From Pectobacterium sp. A5351 (GTDB taxonomy: Bacteria > Pseudomonadota > Gammaproteobacteria > Enterobacterales > Enterobacteriaceae): a DNA stretch of 64,000 nt. The stretch covers positions 3,906,001 through 3,970,000 of the forward strand of contig NZ_CP116477.1 in NCBI RefSeq assembly GCF_028335745.1, given 5' to 3'. A program made the position numbers and the translations under genes. How positions within the stretch are numbered: position 1 is the first letter of the stretch; each line of letters starts with the position of its first letter. The notes beneath the pieces are model-generated. The model saw only the letters and a program-made list of their open reading frames with translations, was not told where the DNA came from and did no database searches. Of the stretch, positions 42,184-58,692 are shown piece by piece.

Positions 42184-44261
<2,078 letters not shown>

Positions 44262-44625: not shown

Positions 44626-45036
44626 TTAGCGCATCAGTTCATCCAGCACCACGCTCACCGACGGCAGTGCGGGCTGGAAAAAATGGCGCGTGGTCTTGTA
44701 GGGAAACAGGCTCTTTTCCGTCACGATCGTCTGCATAATCAGATTCTTGCAAAAAGGCTGTCCGGTCTTCCAATGGTAAACCGATACGCGAGGATCTTCG
44801 TAATCGAGCAGCGCGCAAGGAATATGCTTTAACCCCAGTTCGGTGGCGGCTCGTAGCCGATGGTTGCCATCCATAATAATTCCGGTCTCTTTCTCTATCG
44901 GTACCGGCGTCGTCCAGCAGCCACAGCGGCAAATATCCTCCATCAGACACTCCACGTTCGACATATCAACATTTTCAGAGGGAAGCAGGAACTGCACGGG
45001 CGTAAGGGCAATGTGGTAACTCATACCTTCAAACAT
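44626..45036 (-). CDS. ParB/SbnI-like protein, putative O-phosphoserine supply enzyme
   Basis: A 136-residue ParB/sulfiredoxin-fold protein. Its core is IMDGNHRLRAATELGLKHIP (about 52-71), preceded by VECLMEDICRCGCWTTPVPI. The DGxHR signature is shared with SbnI and archaeal SerK, free-serine kinases making O-phospho-L-serine. SbnI is about 250 residues, so this is a short form. Next to an SbnA-like synthase that needs phosphoserine, a kinase role is an attractive inference; a regulatory ParB-like role is the alternative. AGGAGG lies eight bases before the ATG. It is the last gene of the operon, 67 bp after the binding-protein gene, with a small hairpin (45068-45089) in the gap. Confidence 0.75.
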   Translation of the reverse strand: MFEGMSYHIALTPVQFLLPSENVDMSNVECLMEDICRCGCWTTPVPIEKETGIIMDGNHRLRAATELGLKHIPCALLDYEDPRVSVYHWKTGQPFCKNLIMQTIVTEKSLFPYKTTRHFFQPALPSVSVVLDELMR

Positions 45037-45103
45037 TATCCACCTCCTGACGTAACGGTCTCGTGTCGCTCCGGTTTATCTACCGGAGCCGCCTCTTATT
45101 GAC

Positions 45104-46264
45104 TTACTGCTCAAGACTGACGAAATAGCCCGGCTGGTAATCAACTGGTAAAAATTGCTGATGAAGCTGGCGGAAGGTGTCATCCGCATTGATATCGCGG
45201 AATAGGTCAGGGTGGAACCACTCAGCCAGTTGCTGAATCGCAATGAAATCATAGGGGCCGTTGTAGAACTGGTGCCAGATGGCATGGAAGGCGCGTTGCT
45301 GTTTCGCAACGGTGTTGGTATACGCAGGCCGCCCCAAAAACCATTCAAGCCGCTTGCGCCCTTCCGTCATGTCCTGCCCCGGCCCCAATCCAATCCAGCG
45401 CCCACCGGGCACGAAGGCTTCAAAGTTGCCGCTAGTGATGACGACGATTTCCGGGTTCTCCACAATCACCTGTTCCGGGTGCATCTGCATAAACGTGTTC
45501 GGCGCACTTTTCGCCGCAACATTATCGCCACCGGCCAGTTGTACGAACTTACCGAAGTTATCCCGGCCGAACGTCAGGCAGCATTCATCGGTGTACCCTC
45601 CCAATCGCTCAATGAACACGCGTGGAGAGCGCGGTTTTTTGGCCGCCAGCAGGTCGGAAACGCGTTTTAGCTGCGCCTCACGGAACGCGAGAAACGCTTC
45701 GGCACGCGCTTCCTGATGAAACAGCTTGCCGAAAAGACGCAGGGTTGGCGCGGTGTTTTCCAACGGGTGATAACGGAAATCGACATACACAATCGGAATG
45801 CCGACGCTATCCAGTATCCGGTCATAGCCCGCATCCACAATCGCCCGCTGCGCCTCAATGTTCATAATGATGACGTCCGGCTTGAGCGACACCGCCTGCT
45901 CCACGTCAAACGTGCCCTTTTCCGTACCATCGAACGTCGGGATTTTCGTCAGTTGTGGGAAACGATCGCGATACTGGTGCCACGTTGCCGGATCGGACTG
46001 AATCAGATCGCGCCGCCAGGCGACAATCCTTTTCGCCGGATCTTCCCTGTCGAGCATCGCAACCAGATAAAGCTGACGCCCCTCGCCCAACATAACGCGC
46101 TGCACTGGCGTGTTGACTCTCACCTCACGCCCCAGCACGTCCTTGATGACGGTTGACGTTTGCGCGATTTGCTCAGCCTGACCCGCCAGCGGCGACAGAC
46201 CGACCATCAACAGCGCACTCAGCAATAACCGACGGCAATGTTGCCGCGTCCAACGATTACACAT
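45104..46264 (-). CDS. Periplasmic iron-siderophore-type binding protein
   Basis: A 386-residue class III solute-binding protein. It has a signal peptide (RRLLLSALLMVGLSPLAGQA) and TSTVIKDVLGREVRVNTPVQ, the typical entry strand of BtuF/FecB-like proteins. LKPDVIIMN, GIPIVYVDF and a long helical linker follow, then QVIVENPEIVVITSGNF. It should bind an iron or cobalamin-like chelate in the periplasm. No permease or ATPase gene accompanies it, so it must use another transporter or work with the MFS protein upstream. Start 46264 gives a good signal peptide; 46297 is an in-frame alternative. It overlaps the MFS gene slightly. Confidence 0.85.
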   Translation of the reverse strand: MCNRWTRQHCRRLLLSALLMVGLSPLAGQAEQIAQTSTVIKDVLGREVRVNTPVQRVMLGEGRQLYLVAMLDREDPAKRIVAWRRDLIQSDPATWHQYRDRFPQLTKIPTFDGTEKGTFDVEQAVSLKPDVIIMNIEAQRAIVDAGYDRILDSVGIPIVYVDFRYHPLENTAPTLRLFGKLFHQEARAEAFLAFREAQLKRVSDLLAAKKPRSPRVFIERLGGYTDECCLTFGRDNFGKFVQLAGGDNVAAKSAPNTFMQMHPEQVIVENPEIVVITSGNFEAFVPGGRWIGLGPGQDMTEGRKRLEWFLGRPAYTNTVAKQQRAFHAIWHQFYNGPYDFIAIQQLAEWFHPDLFRDINADDTFRQLHQQFLPVDYQPGYFVSLEQ

Positions 46265-47507
46265 TTTCGATATTTCCCTTCGTCGAGAGAGCGTCATGTT
46301 TTTCCGCCTGTCTCCGCAGGCGTCGTAGCAGCATCAGCGAGACCAGGAAGGTCACCAGGTAAGCGGCGCCAACGCAGAAGAACAGCGAACGTAGTCCGGG
46401 GGAGTAGAGCACCACTCCGCCCAAAGAAATGCCCAGAATAGAGGCAAACTGGCTGACGCTTTGCGCCACACCGAGTAGGTAACCCTGCTGCCCATCCCCC
46501 GCCGAGCGAGAAATCAGCGCCATCAGAACGGGCGTCGTCGCCCCCAACAGCACGCCCCACAGAAAATAAAGCGGGATGAAAATCGCAATATCCAGGATCG
46601 TGGCGGCCGTCAACGTGACGATGGCGCAGGCCAGCATCACCACACACAGGCGGCTCAGCGTCTGCGACAGCGAGAGGTTTTCAAAATAGCGCGCCCACAG
46701 CGATGCAGAGACAATCACGCCGGTCGCCTGCAAGCCATAGCACAGGCCAATAATCCATTTATCCACCTGAAAAAAGCCGTCCATATAGAGGGAAAACGGC
46801 GTTTGCGGAATCATGCGGCTGGTCAGCAGCAGGCCAGAAATCAGCAGCAGACCGGAAATCGGAGACAGTGCCCAAATCAGCCTGCGGGAAGCGTTGTTTT
46901 GTGACGTATTCTCAGGTGGAACAGCAGGCACCACCGGCGCAACATGGGGCAGAAACAGCGCGACGGTAATGCCGCACAGCGCACACAGGATCGCCGCACT
47001 CAGGTTGATCCAGAAGAAGTTCAGGTAGTCGAGGATCAGCCCGCCGACAATCGCGCCCAGCAGCGATCCCACGTTAGTGGACACCTGAAGCCAGGCGAAC
47101 AGCCGCGTGCGCTGTAACGGGCTAACCACCGCAACACCGTAAGCCTGCGCGGGGGCGATATAGCCCGCACAGGCACCCTGAATAAAGCGCAGCGCGACGA
47201 TGATCCAGATATCATTCGCCCACGCTAGTCCAAGCTGGGTCAACGCCAGCCCAAACAGCGCGCGGATCATCATGGCTTTGTTGCCCAGCCTATCGCCCAT
47301 CCGTCCCCAGAAGGCGCTGGTCAGCATGATGCCCAGCATCGGCCCGACGTACACGGCAATCCCCGCGATACTCAGTTCCGCGCCGGACGACATACTTTCC
47401 AGATGCAGCGGCCAAAACGGCCCGCTCATCTCCATCGCCCCCATCGCGACCAGTTGCACGACAAACATAAAGTGGATGATGAACGCCACCTGCCCGCTTA
47501 AGCGCAT
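46257..47507 (-). CDS. MFS transporter of the siderophore locus
   Basis: A 416-residue protein with about 12 membrane segments in two halves. The loop 2-3 motif is GRMGDRLGNKAMMIRALFGL (about 68-87), the MFS signature GxxxDRxGxR. GACAGYIAPAQAYGV is in segment 5, the antiporter-type motif region. A central cytoplasmic loop lies at about 190-215. MFS genes in NIS siderophore clusters usually export the product (SbnD, FslB-like) and sometimes import it. AAGGAG precedes the ATG. It is 37 bp downstream of the opine-dehydrogenase gene on the same strand. Confidence 0.88.
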   Translation of the reverse strand: MRLSGQVAFIIHFMFVVQLVAMGAMEMSGPFWPLHLESMSSGAELSIAGIAVYVGPMLGIMLTSAFWGRMGDRLGNKAMMIRALFGLALTQLGLAWANDIWIIVALRFIQGACAGYIAPAQAYGVAVVSPLQRTRLFAWLQVSTNVGSLLGAIVGGLILDYLNFFWINLSAAILCALCGITVALFLPHVAPVVPAVPPENTSQNNASRRLIWALSPISGLLLISGLLLTSRMIPQTPFSLYMDGFFQVDKWIIGLCYGLQATGVIVSASLWARYFENLSLSQTLSRLCVVMLACAIVTLTAATILDIAIFIPLYFLWGVLLGATTPVLMALISRSAGDGQQGYLLGVAQSVSQFASILGISLGGVVLYSPGLRSLFFCVGAAYLVTFLVSLMLLRRLRRQAEKHDALSTKGNIENV

Positions 47508-47544
47508 GCGTCAGCTCCTTCGAGTTCCACAGCATTACCCCACT

Positions 47545-48702
47545 TCATTTCAGCCACTGCGGCGGGAAATAGTCGGGACGATCCTGCGTGGATGCGCCCA
47601 TGTAATCGCTGCACCACCGGTAGACTTCCTCAATATACGGCACGCTAACCGCCAGATTCTCCGCGATGGTCACCAGCAGGCTCAGGCCGTAGGCAATATC
47701 TTCCTGAAACACCCGATGCTGCGTATCAAACACGTACCCACCCCCGTCATGCTGTCGCAGCGGCAGGCCGATGCCGTGGTAAGCCTGATTGGTACGCAGC
47801 ACAGAGAGCATCGTGTGTGCATCGGCAATCTGATCGCCATAGGCATCGATAATCTCCTGCTTGAGCGGCAGTACCGAGTCCAGCCGCACGCCGAGCCGCG
47901 TTTCCAGCGCCGCACACAGCTGCTGGTTCTCTTCATCCATACGTTCCAGATAATAAGCACCGAGTTCCGGGCAATCATTCCACCAGCACAACGGCTGCGG
48001 AAAAGGTCGAGCGTGCCACTGCCCATAGGGGCCGATCAGGCCATAAATCACCGCACTGTGCATAATCGGGTTACCCGGTGTCAGCGTGATTTCCAGATAA
48101 TCCGGCAATAGCACCACGGGCGCAGAATAAAGCCGTTGCAGCAGCGCCATCAGCGCCTGCTGGCGCGCAGCCGTTTCACGCCGATGCGTAGCCGCATACA
48201 GCGTGGATTTTTCGCCCCCCATTTTGATCGACTGACCTGGCTGCAAATCAAACGCAATGTGCGCGACGTCCTTCATTCCCCAAATCACCGCGTTTGGCCG
48301 AGCAGCCAGCTCACGTTCAGCGAGCCAGTCAAAGCCGCAAAAACCGGGGATCGCGCCAACGTAAACCGGCTTGTCGGCGGGCAGATGGGGAACGATCCGC
48401 GCCAGCAGATCGGCACGGAAGTTGGCGGGAACGGTGATAATCACGACATCCGCGTCGCGGCAGGCTTGCGCCGGATCGCAGGTGACGCAGTCTGGTGTCG
48501 CCGTTAGCGTCTCGCCATCCGGCAGCAGTGCGTGTAGCCGCTTACCGTGCTGCTGATAGGCTTCCGGCAGGCGCGGATGGCTGCCCAGCAGCGTCACCTT
48601 AACGTCCGGCAGTTGCTTAAACAGTACCGTGGTGAGATGGCCGGTCTTGCCGGCCCCGCAAATCACCACGTTAAGCGGCTGCCCGCTTAGCGCTTCGGTC
48701 AT
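47545..48702 (-). CDS. Octopine/nopaline dehydrogenase family enzyme, putative diaminopropionate-forming step
   Basis: A 385-residue two-domain dehydrogenase. The N-terminal Rossmann domain carries NVVICGAGKTGHL (GxGxxG about 16-21) and a strand ADVVIITVPANF. The C-terminal helical domain has GNPIMHSAVIYGLIGPYGQW, where opine dehydrogenases have NPxxHPxxxLxN around the catalytic His. Opine dehydrogenases interconvert an amino acid plus 2-oxo acid with a secondary amine. The SbnA product (N-(1-amino-1-carboxy-2-ethyl)-glutamate) is such a secondary amine, and SbnB (ornithine-cyclodeaminase fold) oxidises it to 2,3-diaminopropionate and 2-oxoglutarate. No SbnB homologue is present, so this enzyme is inferred to take that step. 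AAGGAG supports start 48702; SbnA ends 10 bp upstream. Confidence 0.82.
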   Translation of the reverse strand: MTEALSGQPLNVVICGAGKTGHLTTVLFKQLPDVKVTLLGSHPRLPEAYQQHGKRLHALLPDGETLTATPDCVTCDPAQACRDADVVIITVPANFRADLLARIVPHLPADKPVYVGAIPGFCGFDWLAERELAARPNAVIWGMKDVAHIAFDLQPGQSIKMGGEKSTLYAATHRRETAARQQALMALLQRLYSAPVVLLPDYLEITLTPGNPIMHSAVIYGLIGPYGQWHARPFPQPLCWWNDCPELGAYYLERMDEENQQLCAALETRLGVRLDSVLPLKQEIIDAYGDQIADAHTMLSVLRTNQAYHGIGLPLRQHDGGGYVFDTQHRVFQEDIAYGLSLLVTIAENLAVSVPYIEEVYRWCSDYMGASTQDRPDYFPPQWLK

Positions 48703-48712
48703 CCTTGACTCC

Positions 48713-49729
48713 TTAGCTTGCCTGCTCCAGAGCAATCGCGTTGCCCAGCCAGCGATCCAGATCGTGCCATACGCCGCTATCTGTCAGATTACGCGCCGCC
48801 AGCCACTCTTCGTTAAACACCGTGTGCAGGTATTTTTCACCGCCGTCGGCGATCGCCAGCACGACGTTGCCGCCGATGCGATCCTGATAGATCAGTTCCA
48901 GCGCTTTATAGATCACCCCACCCGTCGAGCCGCCGACCAGCAGGCCGTAATGACGTGCGATATAGCGTGCGGTTTCAAACGCCTGCGCATCCGAAACCTG
49001 CTCGCCACAGTCGATGCAGCTGTAATCCAGCACCAGCCCCACGGTATCTCCCGCTGGCGTACCGGTGCCGGATTGATAGTAAGGCTTGCCGGGGTGCCCA
49101 AAGACGATAGAACCCACCGGTTCAACGGCAATGGTTGTAATATCCGGGTTATGGACTTTCAGGCCGTGTGAAATGCCGGTCATCGATCCGCCAGTGCCCA
49201 CGCAGCCGACAAACGCGTCGATCTTGCCAATCTGGCTGAACAGCTCGCGCACCAAGTCGGCATAGCCGCCCGCATTCGCCGCGTTGTCCGACTGGTTCAT
49301 AAACACCGCGCCGGGTATTTCCTGCGCCAGCTGTGCCGCCATGCGCTGGCGTTCCACCACCGCGACCTCATCTTCGCCGTAGTCGCCGGAGACATAGCGA
49401 ATTTCCGCGCCGAGCGCGCGCATGATGGCAATTTTGTCCTGCGCCGCATGATGATCGACCACGGCGATAAAGCGCAGGCCGTATTCAATCGACGCTAGCG
49501 CCAGCCCGATACCGGTATTACCCGATGACGACTCAACAATGGTGCCACCGGGGCGGATTTTGCCTGACTTCAGCCCGGCGACAATCATGTTTCGCGCCAT
49601 GCGATCCTTCATGCTGCCACCGGGGTTATTCTTCTCCACTTTTAAAAACAAACGCGTATCCCCATAGGGAACCGGAATTTGTATAACAGGCGTATTACCA
49701 ATCAAATCAGTTACTTTATTCAGGATCAT
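48713..49729 (-). CDS. SbnA-like 2,3-diaminopropionate biosynthesis synthase (cysteine synthase fold)
   Basis: A 338-residue fold-type II PLP enzyme. MILNKVTDLIGNTPVIQIPV opens it; PLP lysine 41 is in NNPGGSMKDRMARNM; the substrate loop is ESSSGNTGIGLA; the phosphate loop is GTGGSMTGISHG. Unlike CysK, it follows SbnA in style (length, SMKDR, and DYSCIDCGEQVSDAQAFETA in the C-terminal part). SbnA joins O-phosphoserine and glutamate. It overlaps neither neighbour when started at 49729, although its stretch begins 14 bp after the decarboxylase stop. Plain cysteine synthase is less likely given the neighbours. Confidence 0.87.
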   Translation of the reverse strand: MILNKVTDLIGNTPVIQIPVPYGDTRLFLKVEKNNPGGSMKDRMARNMIVAGLKSGKIRPGGTIVESSSGNTGIGLALASIEYGLRFIAVVDHHAAQDKIAIMRALGAEIRYVSGDYGEDEVAVVERQRMAAQLAQEIPGAVFMNQSDNAANAGGYADLVRELFSQIGKIDAFVGCVGTGGSMTGISHGLKVHNPDITTIAVEPVGSIVFGHPGKPYYQSGTGTPAGDTVGLVLDYSCIDCGEQVSDAQAFETARYIARHYGLLVGGSTGGVIYKALELIYQDRIGGNVVLAIADGGEKYLHTVFNEEWLAARNLTDSGVWHDLDRWLGNAIALEQAS

Positions 49730-49742
49730 GGTTCTGCTCCAT

Positions 49743-51146
49743 TCAGTTATCACTGGAAAAAATCAGCTCACCTTTCTTACCTTTGAACGCACACAGGCGC
49801 GCAGGCAGCGGATGCCGATGAAACGCGTTTTCCAGCAGGTCCATCTGGTATCCCGCCGTATTCGCGTAAATCAGTAAATCGCCAGGCTGCGGCACGGTTC
49901 GAAAATGAATCAATCGGTTCGTAATGACATCATCGTCCAGACAGCTGTGTCCGGCGATCCAGGCTTTGCCCGGTGTCGGAGACGTGTCTTTTTTGACGGA
50001 AAAAACATGCAGAGGATCAATCAAAAACTCAGAGTTAAACCAGGTTTCACACGCGCTGAAGCTACTGCCTTCGACAAACACGACGTAGTTGCCATCCGGC
50101 TGGCGGCGCGTGCGCGTGACGCGAAACACCGTAATCGCACTTTGGTCAGCCAGACTGCGTCCCGGCTCTATCGCCAGAATCAGGCCGTGCTGCTTGAGCA
50201 TGTCTGCCACACGGGTATCCCCGATTGAGGCTGACAGAAATGCCTCAAGGTAGTCAGTTGCCGAACGCTCGCCACCATACGGATAAAACGAGGCCGGCAC
50301 CTGACCGTGGCGGTAGTCTGCCCCACTCTGCTTCGCTAAATAGTCCTGATAGCGTGAAGCCGGAAGATATTGAATCGGCAATCCCCCACCGATATCAATA
50401 ATGGCGGGCTGTAATCCCTTTGAGCGCGCCCGCTCCAGCAACGGCAGCACCTCAGCCAATGCGGCCACGCGGGTGTCGGGTTCATAGCCGCCCAGATGGA
50501 AATGGAAGCCCTCCAGATGAAGCGCATTCAGTCTGGTACTCAACGTATCCAGGCAAATAGCGATCTCATCAGCCAGCATGCCAAACCGGCTGTTTTGTGC
50601 GAACGACGGGCGATAGCGCAGCAAAACCCGCACCGGTTCCGTCACGCGCAGTAAATCCGCCAGCGCGAGTACCTCGCCGAACTCTTCCGGCGAATCCAGC
50701 ACGATAAGCGCGCGGTGATAAACCAGCTCCGTCAGGAATTCGCGCGTTTTCGCCGGACCGGTGGCGCACAGCCGCGTGCCGTCACCGCCTGCCCGCAGCG
50801 CATCTTTCAGTTCCTGTAAGCTGGAAACATCCACGCCGACGCCCGCGTTAACCGCCGCCTGAACCAGCCCCGGTGATTTGTTCACCTTCGCGCCGTAGTA
50901 CAGACGGCAGTCCACATCATGACGCTGCAACACGGTTCGCAATGCCGCGATATTGTTGGCCACGGTGTGCGGCCAGACAATATTCAGCGGCGACCCATAC
51001 TGCTCAACCAGCCATGACAGCCTTTGCGGCGAGTTGAAAAGAAACTGCTCAATCTCACTATCCAGATAAGGCGTCAGTCTCTCAGGCCAGTGGGCCTGCG
51101 CGACAGAGGGGGAAGACACTGCGGCAAAGCTAAACAGGTTGCTCAT
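49743..51146 (-). CDS. Fold-type III PLP decarboxylase (SbnH/FslC-like)
   Basis: A 467-residue alanine-racemase-fold decarboxylase related to diaminopimelate, arginine and ornithine decarboxylases. PLP lysine 87 lies in RLYYGAKVNKSPGLVQAA. FHFHLGGYEPDTRV, IDIGGGLPIQYL and ILAIEPGRSLADQ are the cofactor-binding glycines and barrel strands. AGHSCLDDDVITN carries the C-terminal Cys/Asp pair. In staphyloferrin B synthesis SbnH decarboxylates the citryl-diaminopropionate intermediate; in rhizoferrin synthesis FslC supplies the diamine. The Y4yA-type annotation is another label for this subfamily. AAGGAG precedes the ATG; the TonB receptor gene is 41 bp upstream. Confidence 0.87.
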   Translation of the reverse strand: MSNLFSFAAVSSPSVAQAHWPERLTPYLDSEIEQFLFNSPQRLSWLVEQYGSPLNIVWPHTVANNIAALRTVLQRHDVDCRLYYGAKVNKSPGLVQAAVNAGVGVDVSSLQELKDALRAGGDGTRLCATGPAKTREFLTELVYHRALIVLDSPEEFGEVLALADLLRVTEPVRVLLRYRPSFAQNSRFGMLADEIAICLDTLSTRLNALHLEGFHFHLGGYEPDTRVAALAEVLPLLERARSKGLQPAIIDIGGGLPIQYLPASRYQDYLAKQSGADYRHGQVPASFYPYGGERSATDYLEAFLSASIGDTRVADMLKQHGLILAIEPGRSLADQSAITVFRVTRTRRQPDGNYVVFVEGSSFSACETWFNSEFLIDPLHVFSVKKDTSPTPGKAWIAGHSCLDDDVITNRLIHFRTVPQPGDLLIYANTAGYQMDLLENAFHRHPLPARLCAFKGKKGELIFSSDN

Positions 51147-51187
51147 CGCTATCTCCTTAACGTTCGGTTCCTGAAAAATGCCTATCC

Positions 51188-53392
51188 TTAGAAATCCACC
51201 GCGACGGACAGCATCAGCGTTCGCGGCGTTCCTTGCGATACCGTGCTGAACGATGTCACGCCAGACCAGTAATTACGGTCAAAAGCGTTAAGCACATCGG
51301 CACGGAACGTGGTGGGCGCGTTATAGATTCGCGTCTTGTAGCGCGCGCCGAAATCAACGGTGGTCCAGGAAGGAATGGATTGGGTATTGATGGTGTTGAC
51401 GTTCTGCTTCCCGTTATGGGTGACGTTGGCGTTCAGCGTCAGATCGCGCAGGAACGGCAGATCATATTCCACGCCGGCGTTCGCCTGAAAACGTGACGTC
51501 CCCGGCGCGCGCTTGCCCTGTGCACCCGGCGTCACGCTTTTGGTTAGCTCGGCATCCAGCAGCATCACGCCACCGGTCAGACGCAGATCTTCTAGCGGTG
51601 AACCAACCACATCCAGCTCAATACCCCGATTGCGCTGCTCGTTGGCGGTAACAAACTCACTACCCGTACCATTAACCAGCGCACCGCTCGGCTTGGTAAT
51701 CTGGAAGACGCTCAGCGTAGAGATCGTCCCCAGCGCGTCCACTTTCACCCCAGCTTCGTACTGCTTGCTCTTATACGGTGCCAACACCTGCCCCGCATTG
51801 CTCGCCGTCGTGGGTGCCACGTCCCCTTTACTCAGCCCTTCGATGTAATTGGCGTAGAGCGAGACGTGCTGCCAGGGTTTAACAATCACCCCGAGCATCG
51901 GGGTGATTGCGCTCTTGTCATAAGAAGAGCGCGCCCCGCCATCCGGCGCAGCGAAGTTATCCGAGTTGATTTGCTGATAACGCAGTCCTCCCGTCACTTG
52001 CAATGCATCGTTCCAGAAGCCGAGCGTATCCGCCAATGCGATGCCTGACAGCGCAGTGGATGAACGCTTATACACGCTTGGGGGAGCAGCAATATTCTGT
52101 GTGGGTGAGGAAACTGGATTATAAATATTTGAATTAATGGTTGTTCCTCGCGCATTAGCGCTAGCCTGGCGATCGCGATAGTAGCTAGTCTGTGCCGACA
52201 GTTTGTGCGTCACCGATCCGGTTTCCACATCCGCCCGAACACCGGTCGCCAGCGTGTAGCGGCTGGTAGTAAAACGGAAATTCCTCACGTCGGAACTCAC
52301 ATCACCATTGTTATTCGTCACCTGCGGCACCTGCTCCGACAGTCGGCTCACGTGTGCGCTGGAACCGCCCAGATCGGTAAACCAGGTGACGTTATCCGCC
52401 AGATCGTATTCGGTATGCAGCAGCACCGACTGGTCTTTGGAATGCCAGAATCCCCATGGCTGAGAGATATTGTTATTGCCATCCGGCGCGTCGGGCACGG
52501 TCACACCGGCCGCAAACGAATAAGGACGCGACGGTGCCCGGGTTTTCAGGTGCTGAGTGATGAGATCCAGCGTGGTGCGGAAACGTTCTGACGAGAAATC
52601 CAGCCCGAGCGCGCCGACCTGCGTGCGCTTGTCGCTGCCGTCCCACACCGTGTCGCCGTAGCCGTAATTCCCGTTAAAGCGAATGCCGAGCAGGTTGTTG
52701 TTCTCCAACGCATAGACGCGGGAAATATCCGCATGCTGCATGAGTTGGGAATCAGACTGCCAGCTGGTGGTCAGTCGGGTCAGATTGCCTACGGTGGTCG
52801 GGCGTTTGGTGACGGCGTTAATCACGCCACCCACACTGCTGTTAGGCGACAACCCATACAGCAGCGCCGACGGCCCTTTCAGCACTTCCACCCGCTCGAT
52901 GTAGTCAGTCATCAGTTGATAGTTGGGCGCAACACCGTAGACACCGTTCATGGCGATGTCGCTCAGGTTTCCTTCATTGAGTGGAAAGCCGCGGATGTAA
53001 TAAGAATCCAACAGGCCGCCCTGAGAACTGCTCACCCGCACCGATGCATCATGTGCGACCACCTGCCCCAGCGTCTGTGCCTGTTTATTTTCAATAAACG
53101 ATGAGGTCATGTTGCTGACGTTAAACGGCGTATCCATCACGTCCTTTTTGCCCAGCAGCCCGGTACTGGACGAACGCGCCGACATGCCACCCGCCACCAG
53201 CCCCTGAACGGCTTCCGCGTTTTTGGCTTCAACCACGATAGTGGAATCATCGCGCTCGCCCGTTTCAGCCTGCGCGGGTATCGCGATGCCGGTTAGCACA
53301 GTGAGTGCCGTCGTGACGGCGGCGGCCAACGCGGAGGGAATAGGAAAACGCGTTTTCCCGGTAGGTGGAGTGAAGTTCTTCCTGGCGTTCAT
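51188..53392 (-). CDS. TonB-dependent siderophore receptor
   Basis: A 734-residue outer-membrane protein. It has a signal peptide (residues 1 to about 41, ending IPAQA), a TonB box around STIVVEAK, a plug domain (DTPFNVSNMTSSFIENKQAQ; SYYIRGFPL-like DSYYIRGFPLNEG; ERVEVLKGPSALLYG), and a 22-strand barrel ending in F (TLMLSVAVDF). Start 53392 is chosen for the signal peptide; the frame is open to 53629 but that part lies inside the synthetase gene. It should import the ferric form of the locus's own siderophore. A hairpin with a U-tract separates it from the synthetase gene. Confidence 0.93.
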   Translation of the reverse strand: MNARKNFTPPTGKTRFPIPSALAAAVTTALTVLTGIAIPAQAETGERDDSTIVVEAKNAEAVQGLVAGGMSARSSSTGLLGKKDVMDTPFNVSNMTSSFIENKQAQTLGQVVAHDASVRVSSSQGGLLDSYYIRGFPLNEGNLSDIAMNGVYGVAPNYQLMTDYIERVEVLKGPSALLYGLSPNSSVGGVINAVTKRPTTVGNLTRLTTSWQSDSQLMQHADISRVYALENNNLLGIRFNGNYGYGDTVWDGSDKRTQVGALGLDFSSERFRTTLDLITQHLKTRAPSRPYSFAAGVTVPDAPDGNNNISQPWGFWHSKDQSVLLHTEYDLADNVTWFTDLGGSSAHVSRLSEQVPQVTNNNGDVSSDVRNFRFTTSRYTLATGVRADVETGSVTHKLSAQTSYYRDRQASANARGTTINSNIYNPVSSPTQNIAAPPSVYKRSSTALSGIALADTLGFWNDALQVTGGLRYQQINSDNFAAPDGGARSSYDKSAITPMLGVIVKPWQHVSLYANYIEGLSKGDVAPTTASNAGQVLAPYKSKQYEAGVKVDALGTISTLSVFQITKPSGALVNGTGSEFVTANEQRNRGIELDVVGSPLEDLRLTGGVMLLDAELTKSVTPGAQGKRAPGTSRFQANAGVEYDLPFLRDLTLNANVTHNGKQNVNTINTQSIPSWTTVDFGARYKTRIYNAPTTFRADVLNAFDRNYWSGVTSFSTVSQGTPRTLMLSVAVDF

Positions 53393-53424
53393 CAACAAAG
53401 TTATCCATCTCAAAATGAGGAGTG

Positions 53425-53467
53425 AAAAAGATGCTCCCGTGTTTTCAGCCTGTAAGGCGGGAGCATC
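53425..53467 (-). terminator. Hairpin with U-tract between NIS synthetase and receptor genes
   Basis: A perfect 10-bp stem gatgctcccg/cgggagcatc (53430-53439 with 53458-53467) has an 18-nt loop. On the minus strand it is followed at once by TTTTT. It lies in the 83-bp gap between two genes that should be co-expressed, so partial termination or mRNA end-stabilisation would set the receptor level. Confidence 0.75.
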
Positions 53468-53475
53468 GCCATACA

Positions 53476-55377
53476 TCACGATCCGAGGCGGGTTTCTTCC
53501 CCTGCCGTGAGAAAGGGGTTGCTCAGACCGTGCTGAATCCGGTAGTCGCGATATTCCTGGATATGCATCCGCAGCAGCGAACGCGTATACCAGGGCTGGG
53601 TCAAAAACATGTCGCGTTCGGTCTGCCACAGTTCGCCATCAACGCGCGACTTCACCGCATCAAACGCTGCGGCCGTTTCTTCTTTCATCACCTGCCACAG
53701 ACGCGCATCGGCAAAGCCGTATTCCGCACTCAGCGCCAGCGCCAGTTCGTGCAGGTGGCTGACAAAACAGGCATCGACGACAAACATCCGCACGGGTTCG
53801 ATATCGCCTTCAAACACCGTGGGCAGAATGCCGGGCCAAACGTAGGGTTGCAGGTGATAGCCGCGCTGACGCAGCAGCGGCGCGTAGGTACGCCCGTCGC
53901 CGAAATCGCGGATTAATAATCCCTGCGCGACGCCTTCAGATGAAAAGAGGATCTGGCTGTTCTGCTGATGCGCTTCCAGCCCGATGCCGTACAGCAGATA
54001 GATAGCGATGACAGGCCGGGTCACGGCGCGCACGTATTGGCAGAACCACGCTTCGGGGACAAGCCCGGACAGCGTGACCAGCTCGGTGAACAACGGCTGG
54101 TCGCGATGAGGCAGCGCCGTAAACAGCGTGGCGACGGTCACGGGCAGCGCGCCGTCAGCGCGTTCATAGGCGTGTGCATCGCGGAACACAACCGAAAGGT
54201 GTTTGCCCGGCGCATCATCCTGATGAACCGCGTGCTTGTAGTGGAACGCTGCCTCTTCACGGAAAAACTCCAGCCGCTGCTCGAATCCGCCTTCCTGTGC
54301 CAAAATCGCTTCGATAATGGTGCTGATACGTGGCCCCATGTGGATCGATTTCGCCTGTAGGCTGCGCATTTCGCTGGTCATCCAGATGGCGACAGGCAGT
54401 TTGATGAAGGGGGACGCAGGCGGTTCAACGGGCAAAACGGTACGGAACGACATACCCGGCAGCGTGATGAGATCGGGACCATCGGTCAGTAGAATCCCTT
54501 CGGCGATCTCATCCGCGTAGTGAGATTTCACCCAGTTTTCCAGATGCCAGCTGTGGATAGGCAGCGGGAGCCACTGCGCCTCATCCAGCCCCTGTTGATT
54601 CAGGCGCTGCTTCCAGTCCTGCCAGAGCGCGGGGAACGCCTGAGCAAACCACGCATGAAAATCATCGACGTGAGGCATGGATTCCACATACGCCATATCG
54701 CGGCGCAGCGCGGTAATACGCAGCGGCACGCGGGCGTTGAATTCGGGTGACAGTTGCTGGACGTCTTCGTCACTCAGGCCAGGGCGGGATTTCCAGGTCG
54801 GGTAGTAAGGGTGGCCTTCCAGCGATCCCCACTGATCGAGAAACATGGCCGCATCGCGAATGCTTAACTGCCGGCGCAGCCACGGCGTGAAATGGTTCTG
54901 CCCGTCCTGCTGCATGGCATCAGCCACCTCAGCACGCCATTGGCAGCGATAGCGCCGGGCATGGGTATCATTGCGAATACTGTTACCCACATCTTTTTTC
55001 AGGCCGCTGATGCCGCTCTCTTCAGGGAGAAAATCGAAATTATCGCGAAGTAAATCAATCAATCGCTCGTGGCTGGTAACGGGAAAAGACGCGCCATCTG
55101 AATTAATATGATAAATATTTCCATTATTAATATAAGTGTTTGCCGGTGATGGGGAAATATCGTCGAATTTCAATATACCTTTGCCACCCTGCAACGCCAG
55201 CGTTGCTTTCCGGGAATTATCCTTAATAAAATTCAGGTCATTTTTATTCAAAATCCCTTCTGCAAAAAAACAGCGAATCAATCGCCTTAACGCGTTTTTA
55301 TTTGAATAATCAGAAAGAAAACCATCTACATCCTGATGTATATCCCTGTATTTAACGTCGTCAGCCTTGATATTCAT
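53476..55377 (-). CDS. NIS siderophore synthetase, IucA/IucC family
   Basis: A 633-residue ATP-dependent synthetase joining a carboxylate (usually citrate) to an amine or alcohol. The ATP-binding motif is GHPYYPTWKSRPGLS (about 190-204). KLPVAIWMTSEMRSLQAKSI lies in the palm. The catalytic region is GIGLEAHQQNSQIL (about 470), followed by LIRDFGDGR and a C-terminal FhuF-like helical part. It is the only NIS synthetase in the window. Start 55377 has GAGGAG five bases ahead; GTG 6 bp earlier is in frame. The first 110 codons are markedly A/T-rich compared with the rest. It is the first gene of the minus-strand operon. Confidence 0.94.
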   Translation of the reverse strand: MNIKADDVKYRDIHQDVDGFLSDYSNKNALRRLIRCFFAEGILNKNDLNFIKDNSRKATLALQGGKGILKFDDISPSPANTYINNGNIYHINSDGASFPVTSHERLIDLLRDNFDFLPEESGISGLKKDVGNSIRNDTHARRYRCQWRAEVADAMQQDGQNHFTPWLRRQLSIRDAAMFLDQWGSLEGHPYYPTWKSRPGLSDEDVQQLSPEFNARVPLRITALRRDMAYVESMPHVDDFHAWFAQAFPALWQDWKQRLNQQGLDEAQWLPLPIHSWHLENWVKSHYADEIAEGILLTDGPDLITLPGMSFRTVLPVEPPASPFIKLPVAIWMTSEMRSLQAKSIHMGPRISTIIEAILAQEGGFEQRLEFFREEAAFHYKHAVHQDDAPGKHLSVVFRDAHAYERADGALPVTVATLFTALPHRDQPLFTELVTLSGLVPEAWFCQYVRAVTRPVIAIYLLYGIGLEAHQQNSQILFSSEGVAQGLLIRDFGDGRTYAPLLRQRGYHLQPYVWPGILPTVFEGDIEPVRMFVVDACFVSHLHELALALSAEYGFADARLWQVMKEETAAAFDAVKSRVDGELWQTERDMFLTQPWYTRSLLRMHIQEYRDYRIQHGLSNPFLTAGEETRLGS

Positions 55378-55627
55378 AACCACTCCTCATACCGATAAAA
55401 CAAGTAAAAACCGATTGCAGTAACGTATAAAAGGGTGTCATTAAAGCTCGGGTTAACACATCCCGAAACTTAATAAAAATGTCGTGATAGATGGATTGAA
55501 AAATAATGAACGGAAAGCTAGCATATCACTAACGTCAATGTAAATAGGTATCATTCTTATTCGCAATTAATTAGTTACATTTTAATAAAATGTAATTTAA
55601 TCAATTAATTAACAAAATGAGAGCAGC
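55378..55627. promoter_or_regulatory. Divergent promoter region with candidate Fur box
   Basis: A 250-bp A/T-rich region between the synthetase and CitE-like genes. The reverse complement of 55540-55562 reads gaataagaatgatacc then tatttac; its 19-bp core agrees with the Fur consensus (GATAATGATAATCATTATC) at 12 of 19 positions by eye. Iron repression of both directions is inferred. Confidence 0.55.
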
Positions 55628-56509
55628 ATGGAACACGCTAAAACCTATCTCTTTGTACCCGGTAATGCGCCCCGCCGCTTTCAACATGCCGTCAACTGCG
55701 GGGCCGATGCCGTGATATTTGATTTAGAAGATGCTGTTCATCCTGATGAGAAAAACCAGGCCAGAGAGAATATTATCGAGTGGGATAAAAACGATACTCC
55801 CGTCTCTGAAATAAATTGCAAAAAATATATACGTTTAAATAAATTTGGATCAATGGCATTCAGCGAAGACATCGAGTTTCTGAATAAACTCAGCAATAAA
55901 GAGAAATTAAGAAATAACACATCATCCAAACATAAAATAGTCACATGGGAAATTGTTTTACCTAAAATAGAATCAGCAGAAATGCTGAATGACGCGCGGG
56001 AAATGATAAATCGTAATAGATTGGAAAACGTGAATATTATTGCGATTATTGAAACCGTGCGCGGGCTGCATAATGCAGAAGAAATTTGTGCGGCAGGAGT
56101 AGAAAGAGTCGCATTTGGCTCACTGGATTTCTCACTCGATATGCATTGCGATCAATCCCTGCATGCCTTGCTGTATGCCAGAAGCCGTATTGTCGTGGCT
56201 TCAAGACAGGCCGATTTGCCCCCGCCAATAGATTGCGTCAACCCTGACTTCACACATCATGACCGGGTGTTAGCCGATGCATTACATGCGCGCTCGCTCG
56301 GCTTCTCGGCCAAACTCTGTATTCACCCCTCACAGATCGATGCCGTTCAGCAGGCGTTCGCAACGGATCGCAGCAAAATAGACTGGGCAAAGCAGGTTCT
56401 GAAAGCGGCCGAACACAGCTACGCTTTCCAGATAAACGGCGAGATGGTGGATTTACCCGTCATTGAGCAGGCCAGGCAGCTATTGCGAGCGAAAAATGTA
56501 GATGACTAA
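55628..56509 (+). CDS. CitE-like HpcH/HpaI aldolase of the siderophore locus
   Basis: A 293-residue TIM-barrel protein of the citrate lyase beta/HpcH family. AKTYLFVPGNAPRRFQHAV, ADAVIFDLEDAVHPDEKNQA (metal-binding Glu/Asp), IIAIIETVRGLHNAEEI, VAFGSLDFSLDM and SAKLCIHPSQIDAVQQAF appear in family order. It is divergent from the synthetase and shares its promoter region. SbnG in staphyloferrin B loci belongs to this superfamily and makes citrate, so a citrate-supplying or siderophore-cleaving role is inferred. Codons up to about 140 are very A/T-rich; the rest is ordinary. Confidence 0.85.
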   Translation: MEHAKTYLFVPGNAPRRFQHAVNCGADAVIFDLEDAVHPDEKNQARENIIEWDKNDTPVSEINCKKYIRLNKFGSMAFSEDIEFLNKLSNKEKLRNNTSSKHKIVTWEIVLPKIESAEMLNDAREMINRNRLENVNIIAIIETVRGLHNAEEICAAGVERVAFGSLDFSLDMHCDQSLHALLYARSRIVVASRQADLPPPIDCVNPDFTHHDRVLADALHARSLGFSAKLCIHPSQIDAVQQAFATDRSKIDWAKQVLKAAEHSYAFQINGEMVDLPVIEQARQLLRAKNVDD

Positions 56510-56592: not shown

Positions 56593-57072
56593 TTATGACT
56601 TAACGTAATCAATGGAATTGACGAACCACTCACGCGGGCCGTCTGGCGTATTCACGGTGAATTCCTCATCAACCGCTTTTTTCAGCATGGCACGCGCCAT
56701 CGGGGAATCGATCGAAATATAGTCTTTATTGTCGCCGTAGATCTCATCCGGGCCGACAATCCGAAAATGCTTCACATCACCTTGCTCATTTTCGATCTCT
56801 ACCCAGGCACCAAAAAATACGCTGCCATCCTGCTGCGGCGAATAATCAACGATTTTCAATTCCGTCAGGCATTTTCTCAGGTAACGCACACGCCTGTCGA
56901 TCTGGCGTAATAAACGCTTGTTATAGGTGTAGTCTGCATTTTCTGAACGATCCCCCAAGCTGGCTGCCCAGGAAACAATTTTGGTAATTTCCGGGCGCTT
57001 TACATTCCAGAGATGGTCATGCTCTGCCCGCAGTTTGTCATACCCCTCGCGGGTAATCAGGTTGGTTTTCAA
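56593..57072 (-). CDS. greB: Transcript cleavage factor GreB
   Basis: A 159-residue protein. The N-terminal coiled-coil finger opens TNLITREGYDKLRAEHDHLW and carries the two acidic tip residues in SLGDRSENADYTYNKRLLRQ. The C-terminal FKBP-like domain has SVFFGAWVEIENEQGDVKHF and DYISIDSPMARAMLKKAV. GreB rescues backtracked RNA polymerase. The start is TTG (57072), overlapping the hipA stop (TTGA), with only a weak GGGG Shine-Dalgarno. In E. coli greB has its own promoter and faces the same way as tex; here it is on the opposite strand to tex and downstream of hipBA. Confidence 0.96.
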   Translation of the reverse strand: MKTNLITREGYDKLRAEHDHLWNVKRPEITKIVSWAASLGDRSENADYTYNKRLLRQIDRRVRYLRKCLTELKIVDYSPQQDGSVFFGAWVEIENEQGDVKHFRIVGPDEIYGDNKDYISIDSPMARAMLKKAVDEEFTVNTPDGPREWFVNSIDYVKS

Positions 57073-58367
57073 GTCATTAACCCCGTTAGGCGCTTAGTGC
57101 GTAAGCTGTCCGGCGTACCTTCAAAAATAAAAGGGTTGAGAAACATCCGGCCCCAAAACAGCTTGCGATCCACTTCGCTTAATGCGACTTCATCGCAGAT
57201 GCTTTCCCAGCACGCACGCACCGTTTCTATCTGATGCATGATGATCTCAATAGCTTCAGCTTCGCTCAGCAGAAATTTAGGTGCAGCCGCCAGACAGACA
57301 GCGAAATTGCTCATCCTGTTTTCACCCGTGATCAACATTGCCTGCGTCGCCTCATTACCCGCCCGATTCTGCGGGCAAATATCATAGGCTGGAGTCAGCT
57401 TTAGTGTTCGGCCATCCCAGAATGCCGCGTGGTTTCGGGCATGATCGTCGGTGTTTCCGCAGATGATGTTGAAGACCAGGCGGCCAAACAACTCACGCAG
57501 CGTCGCTTTCGGTTCGTCGAAACGTTGCCGGATGATGTCCGAGAATTCTTCGTAGCTCGCATATCTCGCCATCATTTCATCAAGGCTGAAAAGCGTCAGT
57601 GCAGAGACCATTAGCCTGCGTTTCCAGCCACCTTCTGCTTTCATACGGTCAAAACGTTCTATCAGAATAACGTCCTTCCCCGCCGTCTGACGAAAGTGCA
57701 CCGGAGCCACATCTAAGCCAGCACTTGCGGCCAACCGCATAGCGATATATTCGGCCTTAACAACGTTGTAGGTATCCGTTGAAGATGAAAATTTTGCGAT
57801 GAACTTATGGTTCTCATCTTCAATCATCGCTTTCGGCCGTGCGCCCCCCAACGAACTCCCATGGAAAAGTGCTTGATCAAGCTCAGGCGTCAACAAGGCA
57901 CCGTTTTCCACCATAGTGGCAGCAAGCATCAACTCTTCAAGAGAAGCATTTTGAGCTGAACGCGGGACATACTCTGTCGGCAATGCCTGAAAATCGAGCC
58001 CGCCAATTCTGTCTGAACCGGACTCAAGCAGATATGTCAATTCATCCAGCGTACTGCTATCTGTTCCCCTGCCTCTGACACCCATCAGTCGATTAAGGAT
58101 GACCCTGCGTCCCCATGCGTCAGGTGCGGCATCGCGTAATGCACTCGCCTGCCATAGGCCCGCCGCTGGCGGTATAGCACCACGCATTAACGGCAGTTCA
58201 GGTTCATAGATAGGGATCGCGTCTTTTCGCTCCAGATAGTTACGACCATAATTGAAAATGAGTCGGTCGCCGTCCCGGCTCAATAAACCAGCCACAACAG
58301 GCTTCGTCGCATCAGGCAACCAGATCCATACATAGGCTTTGTCGATAGCGTTATCAGAAGTCATCAT
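57069..58367 (-). CDS. HipA family serine/threonine kinase toxin
   Basis: A 432-residue HipA-like protein. N-terminal region: YVWIWLPDATKPVVAGLLSR, then LMRGAIPPAAGLWQASALRD. The HipA_C kinase part has GSSLGGARPKAMIEDE (P-loop-like), KFSSSTDTYNVVKAEYIAMR (Lys/Glu), ILIERFDR-like VILIERFDR, catalytic NIICGNTDDHARNHAAFWD (about 300) and metal Asp in LTPAYDICPQ. Known HipA toxins phosphorylate tRNA synthetases and cause persistence; the target here is unknown. It overlaps hipB by 14 bp and greB by 4 bp, an arrangement implying one transcript. Confidence 0.92.
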   Translation of the reverse strand: MMTSDNAIDKAYVWIWLPDATKPVVAGLLSRDGDRLIFNYGRNYLERKDAIPIYEPELPLMRGAIPPAAGLWQASALRDAAPDAWGRRVILNRLMGVRGRGTDSSTLDELTYLLESGSDRIGGLDFQALPTEYVPRSAQNASLEELMLAATMVENGALLTPELDQALFHGSSLGGARPKAMIEDENHKFIAKFSSSTDTYNVVKAEYIAMRLAASAGLDVAPVHFRQTAGKDVILIERFDRMKAEGGWKRRLMVSALTLFSLDEMMARYASYEEFSDIIRQRFDEPKATLRELFGRLVFNIICGNTDDHARNHAAFWDGRTLKLTPAYDICPQNRAGNEATQAMLITGENRMSNFAVCLAAAPKFLLSEAEAIEIIMHQIETVRACWESICDEVALSEVDRKLFWGRMFLNPFIFEGTPDSLRTKRLTGLMT

Positions 58368-58692
58368 TCACGACCTTTTTGGAATGATGTACAGCGCGCG
58401 GCAGAAGAGAGAGTGTTTTCTCCGTGTTGGCCATATGAAGTGCCATTGCGGATTGGTCCGCGGTAAAAAGAGGGACACCAACAAGGGTAGCCAGCTCAAA
58501 AACCGCGCCAATTGAACATCCCATATCTCCTTCCTCTGCGCGATAGACTAAGCCTCGTGATACGCCTGCCCGTTCAGCTAATTCTTCCACTGTCATATTA
58601 CGTTCGATCCTCGCGCTGCGAAGCATCAACCCGAGTAAACGAGCTGCGTCACGGCTGTAGCGAGAATATGTTCGAGCAGAAGGTTTCGCCAT
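58354..58692 (-). CDS. HipB-like HTH antitoxin
   Basis: A 112-residue protein with a Cro/C1 (XRE) helix-turn-helix: LMLRSARIERNMTVEELAER (about 22-41), then AGVSRGLVYRAEEGDM as recognition helix. An extended C-terminal tail (LSLLPRAVHHSKKVVNDDF) should contact HipA. It is the first gene of hipBA and presumably autorepresses through the inverted repeats upstream. Its stop lies within hipA. Confidence 0.92.
   Translation of the reverse strand: MAKPSARTYSRYSRDAARLLGLMLRSARIERNMTVEELAERAGVSRGLVYRAEEGDMGCSIGAVFELATLVGVPLFTADQSAMALHMANTEKTLSLLPRAVHHSKKVVNDDF

Follow-up and report, generated by a model that had tools for sequence, protein, structure and literature searches.

Rhizobactin, first found as the malate form in the rhizobial group, and rhizobactin B, which carries citramalic acid in place of malic acid, were both identified in Pseudomonas sp. 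FEN by high-resolution tandem mass spectrometry, with two-dimensional nuclear magnetic resonance of rhizobactin B (PMC7676072). In the accessible parts of that report, the measured ions are 378.1866 and 392.2020, the malate and citramalate forms were the only ones found, rhizobactin B was the more abundant of the two and pyoverdine was not found. Its authors suggested homologs of the rhizobactin 1021 genes rhbAB and did not settle how the compounds are made. Caballeronia mineralivorans PML1(12) is also linked to rhizobactin, as a siderophore of the nonribosomal peptide synthetase-independent siderophore (NIS) type, by the title of a 2023 paper (10.1128/aem.00453-23). The subject of this work is a nine-gene locus at 44626-56509 of a 64,000-nucleotide stretch of Pectobacterium sp. 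A5351 (contig NZ_CP116477.1, positions 3,906,001 to 3,970,000; hereafter the window), which is very probably, as judged from its sequence, a rhizobactin-type siderophore cluster that would produce a lysine-based aminopolycarboxylate, release it and take it up again.

The locus also resembles two other systems in part. With the sbn genes for staphyloferrin B in Staphylococcus aureus it shares an O-phosphoserine kinase, an SbnA-type enzyme and a decarboxylase fold. However, staphyloferrin B has what we take to be three NIS enzymes (SbnC, SbnE and SbnF) and an SbnB that presumably belongs to an ornithine-cyclodeaminase-like family, whereas the Pectobacterium locus has one NIS gene and an octopine-type dehydrogenase. 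Its NIS synthetase, major facilitator superfamily (MFS) protein and decarboxylase resemble FslA, FslB and FslC of the rhizoferrin system of Francisella (fslABC), but with scores that all fall far below the cut-offs; the rhizoferrin route is not known to have an SbnA-like or opine dehydrogenase step.

Nine open frames lie between ompR and greB, eight on the minus strand and the ninth, for the CitE-like protein, divergent on the plus strand. A first-pass annotation, made from the sequence by a model, had named nine genes of these families and proposed a self-contained carboxylate NIS locus that has its own exporter and uptake genes and obtains its precursors by way of O-phosphoserine and an SbnA-type enzyme; the gene content is confirmed by the open frames together with Pfam (E threshold 0.001) and NCBIfam (scores compared with the cut-off of each model), and the proposal of a self-contained locus is supported. 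Eight of the nine proteins fit their stated families by Pfam or NCBIfam, and the 136-residue ParB/SbnI-like frame by NCBIfam SerK. That frame (44626..45036, minus strand) comes first in the gene order and would encode a compact SerK/SbnI-like free serine kinase of ParB fold, the predicted maker of O-phospho-L-serine. Next are a periplasmic iron-siderophore binding protein (45104..46297, minus strand; PF01497 Peripla_BP_2, 2.1e-11), which at 218.6 bits does not reach the cut-off of 374 for NF010649, and an MFS protein (46257..47507, minus strand; PF07690 MFS_1, 1.2e-43), a predicted siderophore exporter whose best NCBIfam relative is the rhizoferrin exporter FslB (NF041040; 186 bits, below the cut-off of 600).

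Three enzyme genes follow. The dehydrogenase (47545..48735, minus strand) belongs to PF02317 Octopine_DH (4.3e-30), matches the octopine dehydrogenase structure 3c7a (3.5e-23) and carries H226, R341 and D346, which are invariant in 81/81 aligned sequences and which we take to be the octopine dehydrogenase catalytic set. The SbnA-like enzyme (48713..49753, minus strand), which depends on pyridoxal 5'-phosphate (PLP), matches PALP at 7.8e-66, with TIGR03945 as its best NCBIfam family (238 bits, below the cut-off of 350). The PLP decarboxylase (49743..51146, minus strand), of the diaminopimelate/ornithine decarboxylase fold, matches PF02784 Orn_Arg_deC_N (9.5e-22), lysA (4.7e-32) and FslC (9.1e-7), as well as the structures of N-citrylornithine decarboxylase (7kh2, 1.1e-4) and 6knh (2.2e-4), the latter presumably SbnH. 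Then come a TonB-dependent siderophore receptor (51188..53629, minus strand; TIGR01783, 330 bits, above the cut-off of 223.5) and the NIS synthetase (53476..55383, minus strand; PF04183 IucA_IucC, 6.7e-57, and PF06276 FhuF, 1.4e-32), for which FslA is the nearest curated model at 267.5 bits, below the cut-off of 1000. This is the sole PF04183 gene in the 4.41 Mb genome, whose genes find their nearest matches in Pectobacterium; the single copy upholds the earlier view that the product is distinct from achromobactin and aerobactin, both of which we assume to need more than one NIS synthetase.

The closest match to a known producer is found in FEN itself. Counterparts to 9/9 genes were detected by tblastn within about 15.3 kb of a contig (L012) from the published FEN assembly, whose accession is given in PMC7849696. 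Identities range from 48 to 74% over the nine proteins (SbnA-like enzyme 74%, dehydrogenase 61%, NIS synthetase 60%, decarboxylase 52%, CitE-like protein 48%), and CitE and the compact SerK are among the nine families represented. Gene order and strands differ in FEN. Sigma-70 family and FecR-like genes also precede the FEN receptor (L012:15114-17083), which suggests surface signalling there; the Pectobacterium locus has no equivalent. The FEN draft genome has one PF04183 gene and one PF02317 gene, both in this cluster. NIS and Octopine_DH enzymes would be expected to form, respectively, the amide of malate or citramalate and the carboxyethyl-amine bond of rhizobactin, so the single-copy NIS synthetase and octopine-type dehydrogenase are assigned to the FEN compound by elimination. 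The draft genome of C. mineralivorans PML1(12) likewise has one PF04183 gene, the cluster counterpart, and its NIS, dehydrogenase, exporter, binding protein and SerK-like counterparts lie on one contig (L059). Its cluster differs in being split across contigs, with a 76% identical SbnA-like gene on another, and in that no CitE relative above 31% identity is found in the genome.

From these comparisons a route can be proposed. O-phosphoserine would come from the SerK-like kinase or from the usual pathway to serine, and the SbnA-like enzyme would exchange the phosphate of O-phosphoserine for the alpha-amine of lysine; this joining of O-phosphoserine and lysine is the best reading of an enzyme that the first-pass annotation had making free diaminopropionate. 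The decarboxylase would then strip the new carboxylate from the lysine adduct to leave N2-(2-aminoethyl)lysine, and with it the ethylenediamine unit. The octopine-type dehydrogenase is predicted to condense the free amine with pyruvate and reduce the product, giving a carboxyethyl (alanine-like) arm. Citramalate would be made from pyruvate and acetyl-CoA by the CitE-like lyase, and the NIS synthetase would adenylate citramalate (or malate) and form an amide with the lysine side-chain amine. Finally, the MFS protein would export the product, and the TonB receptor and binding protein would return its iron complex. We infer each of these steps, and the assignment of individual enzymes to individual rhizobactin bonds, from the protein families and the FEN product. 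The route balances to C15H27N3O8 ([M+H]+ 378.1871) for the malate form and C16H29N3O8 (392.2027) for the citramalate form, in agreement with both FEN ions. The rhizobactin type is thus proposed because of the 9/9 FEN counterparts, the single-copy NIS and dehydrogenase genes in that strain and the formula balance.

Several points weigh against this assignment. The receptor alone among the nine proteins exceeds an NCBIfam cut-off, and the inner-membrane permease or ATPase seen in several relatives is absent from the Pectobacterium locus. The one-gene counts for FEN rest on a draft assembly of 36 contigs (PMC7849696), as described in the accessible text. Identities of 48-74% to FEN leave a shift of substrate possible, for example to citrate or to another amino acid. 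A Fur box could not be demonstrated in the divergent promoter region between the NIS and CitE-like genes (55384..55627), where the consensus match is no better than in shuffles. That match, to a 19-base Fur consensus, was equalled by 906/2000 single-base shuffles. The region has a conserved AATGTAAATAGGTATCATTCTTATTCGC block, a Fur-like candidate only, which is kept in 9/9 aligned loci; three of its positions vary, two of these in a Samsonia locus (L066) alone.

The same genes recur well beyond Pectobacterium. Named bacterial genomes were scanned with a 15-row dehydrogenase alignment, 97 relatives were confirmed, and the nine window proteins were matched by tblastn to the best 80 loci of the 97. 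A NIS counterpart was found in all 80, MFS, SbnA-like and decarboxylase counterparts in 79 each, the receptor in 76, the SerK-like protein in 74, the binding protein in 70 and CitE in 32. The lone MFS absence (L016) and the lone absence of both SbnA-like enzyme and decarboxylase (L059) coincide with contig ends, unlike the six absences of the SerK-like protein. Since the gene set recurs across 80 loci that were selected by the dehydrogenase, it is not a chance neighbourhood. Of the 79 loci with all three of the decarboxylase, SbnA-like and dehydrogenase genes, 78 have them in this order on a single strand; the exception is a Bosea. Hosts include Pectobacterium, Samsonia, Pseudomonas, Burkholderiales and related Betaproteobacteria, rhizobia, Thalassospira and others. 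The spread is patchy, given that in an even phylum sample 3/398 genomes (the source genome counted) have a dehydrogenase match with an E value of at most 1e-60, two of them Pectobacterium. Two further members of the family to which Pectobacterium belongs, with small genomes of about 2.2 and 1.4 Mb, carry eroded cluster remnants with unchanged order (L094 and L095).

The choice of acid turns on the CitE-like gene (55628..56509, plus strand; HpcH_HpaI, 3.7e-34), a C-C lyase predicted to supply citramalate (or malate). Citramalate, and with it the rhizobactin B form, is moderately favored as the main acid in Pectobacterium. The first-pass annotation had taken this protein for a citrate maker, but RipC_Ccl (NF038242) scores 154.7 bits against 124.9 for citE, both under their cut-offs (375 for RipC), and the FEN counterpart ranks the two in the same way (160.8 versus 108.1 bits). 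A rather unlikely alternative, which is of the same rhizobactin type and differs in the acid alone, is that classical malate rhizobactin is the main product and that the CitE-like protein is otherwise used, to make malate from glyoxylate or in catabolism. Malate is freely supplied by central metabolism, the core enzymes are identical in kind in loci that lack CitE, PML1(12) included, and FEN itself releases some of the malate form. On the other hand, the citramalate form is the commoner one in FEN according to the same available text (PMC7676072), a scan of the FEN genome found no relative other than the CitE counterpart (51% in that scan), which adjoins the cluster, and the best curated family, though under its cut-off, is the citramalyl-CoA lyase RipC.

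A broader proposal is that CitE acts as a switch between two siderophores. Gained in Pectobacterium, Samsonia, Pseudomonas, a Bosea and a Budvicia-like genome, it would give each cluster its own citramalate supply and hence citramalyl rhizobactin B; clusters without it (rhizobia, Burkholderiales, Thalassospira) would make malyl rhizobactin, with the NIS synthetase co-adapted to the acid. The 32 CitE-positive loci are from 23 Pseudomonas, 7 Pectobacterium, 1 Samsonia and 1 Bosea, and CitE was not found within the fetched flanks of the other 48/80, including all Rhizobium-, Sinorhizobium- and Ensifer-titled loci and both Caballeronia; five of the 48 are cut by contig ends (L059, L063, L074, L084 and L091). 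In a NIS tree of 79 loci and the window (the truncated L016 left out), presence and absence of CitE are separated by one change, and 0/500 shuffles were as low. Fifteen NIS columns separate the 32 CitE-positive from the 48 CitE-less sequences. Two of these lie within a conserved GHPYYPTWKSRPG stretch, in which Y193 and R200 of the Pectobacterium protein are replaced by F and K in 46/48 CitE-less relatives.

Several findings speak against the switch and the citramalate link. The branch that divides the two groups has a support of 22 and CitE status tracks taxonomy closely, so the link to citramalate may reflect shared ancestry, and kinship could also explain the 15 separating columns. Some malate form is released by FEN as well, and CitE may therefore not decide which acid is used. 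In a Caballeronia whose locus lacks CitE (L035), a 41-55% identical CitE relative lies on a different contig, and relatives of 31-34% identity lie elsewhere in both rhizobial genomes that were tested (L070 and L082), which means that the acid could also be supplied from outside the cluster. Because CitE relatives occur elsewhere in genomes whose clusters lack the gene, the switch is put forward tentatively, and we consider it slightly less than probable.

The citrate-diamine product favored in the first-pass annotation fares worse. A close variant, in which an FslA-type NIS synthetase acts on citrate, the CitE-like protein is an SbnG-like citrate maker and citryl replaces citramalyl ([M+H]+ 436.193), is very unlikely. 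FslA, of the citrate siderophore rhizoferrin, is the nearest curated NIS model, but at 267.5 bits against 1000, and the 60% identical FEN counterpart is from a strain for which the accessible text records malate and citramalate forms only (PMC7676072); citrate is a substrate of type A NIS enzymes according to the part of a review available to us, and SbnG-type citrate supply is similarly described for staphyloferrin B. The matching gene set, moreover, is that of a producer of rhizobactin and rhizobactin B, so that close homologues of these genes belong with another product in FEN and, by title, in C. mineralivorans. A product like staphyloferrin B, built from citrate and free diaminopropionate, is highly improbable: SerK/SbnI-like, SbnA-like and FslC/SbnH-fold genes are indeed present, but there is one NIS gene in the genome (against three for staphyloferrin B), none of the nine proteins matches the SbnB family (the dehydrogenase being PF02317), SbnC and SbnF score 84 bits against 700 and 106 against 900, and the matching cluster sits in a rhizobactin producer. 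Both the staphyloferrin B and the rhizoferrin readings were rejected because of gene counts and model scores.

Within Pectobacterium, 25 genomes were sampled for the dehydrogenase and NIS genes. The dehydrogenase is one full frame in 16, two pieces in G205 and a tail alone in G215. Exactly one NIS gene is present in 17 genomes, the same 17 that have the full or two-piece dehydrogenase (the frame in G218 is shorter, at 514 residues), and six have no NIS match. The remaining two genomes (G201 and G212) have a pair of NIS genes separated by about 2.7 kb and no dehydrogenase match, which would be an aerobactin-like arrangement; the two patterns never occur together in the 25 genomes. In G215 (L096, 14 kb), the receptor, exporter and binding protein are matched nearly end to end, the NIS and CitE genes are fragments, and the decarboxylase, SbnA-like and SerK-like proteins are unmatched. 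This is likely an uptake-only strain, an arrangement that would fit a shared siderophore.

A siderophore locus in 17/25 sampled Pectobacterium genomes, one of them with a split dehydrogenase, thereby gains a proposed structure; two comparative Pectobacterium papers, in the parts available, deal with other siderophore genes. The likely rhizobactin B gene cluster is also located, a point that its discoverers left open. Among the matches listed in our literature search, which left preprints and most subscription papers outside its coverage and did not retrieve the Caballeronia paper, no paper assigning a rhizobactin gene cluster was recognised. Within that literature, the placement of the rhizobactin B cluster and the proposal that CitE supplies citramalate are new; the Pectobacterium locus belongs to the already known rhizobactin kind, and the CitE link is the new part. 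An exact mass can now be looked for, and addition of one lyase gene offers a simple test of the change in acid.

The 136-residue protein deserves separate mention. It has no Pfam family at the threshold used, and its match to SerK (NF053625, 1.8e-10) reaches 40.4 bits against a cut-off of 380, the protein being about 100 residues shorter. It also matches the PDB entries 1vk1 and 5x0b. The predicted model has a mean predicted local distance difference test score (pLDDT) of 94.8 and combines a ParB-type kinase fold with the C-terminal segment of SerK; its alignments with SerK-type and SbnI entries cover 130-134 of the 136 residues. A pseudogene was considered and rejected, given that a counterpart matching over a comparably short length is present in 74/80 loci and that the fold is predicted with good resolution and corresponds to SerK and SbnI over their whole length except for a missing middle. 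Three-frame translation of the gap downstream of the gene revealed no recognisable remainder of it.

Signal peptides and homolog lengths indicate that the listed frames probably start too early for five of the proteins, with likely starts near 46264 for the binding protein, at 48702 for the dehydrogenase (385 residues), at 49729 for the SbnA-like enzyme, near 53392 for the receptor and at 55377 for the NIS synthetase (633 residues). Of the two flanking genes, ompR (43542-44261) was identified by its sequence and position; greB is at 56593-57072. HipA-like and HipB-like genes with weak NCBIfam matches directly adjoin greB (57069-58692). Elsewhere in the same genome are two nonribosomal peptide synthetase regions (G000:C2:496148-506089 and 2651470-2664184, with 8 condensation domain matches), possibly for other siderophores or peptides.

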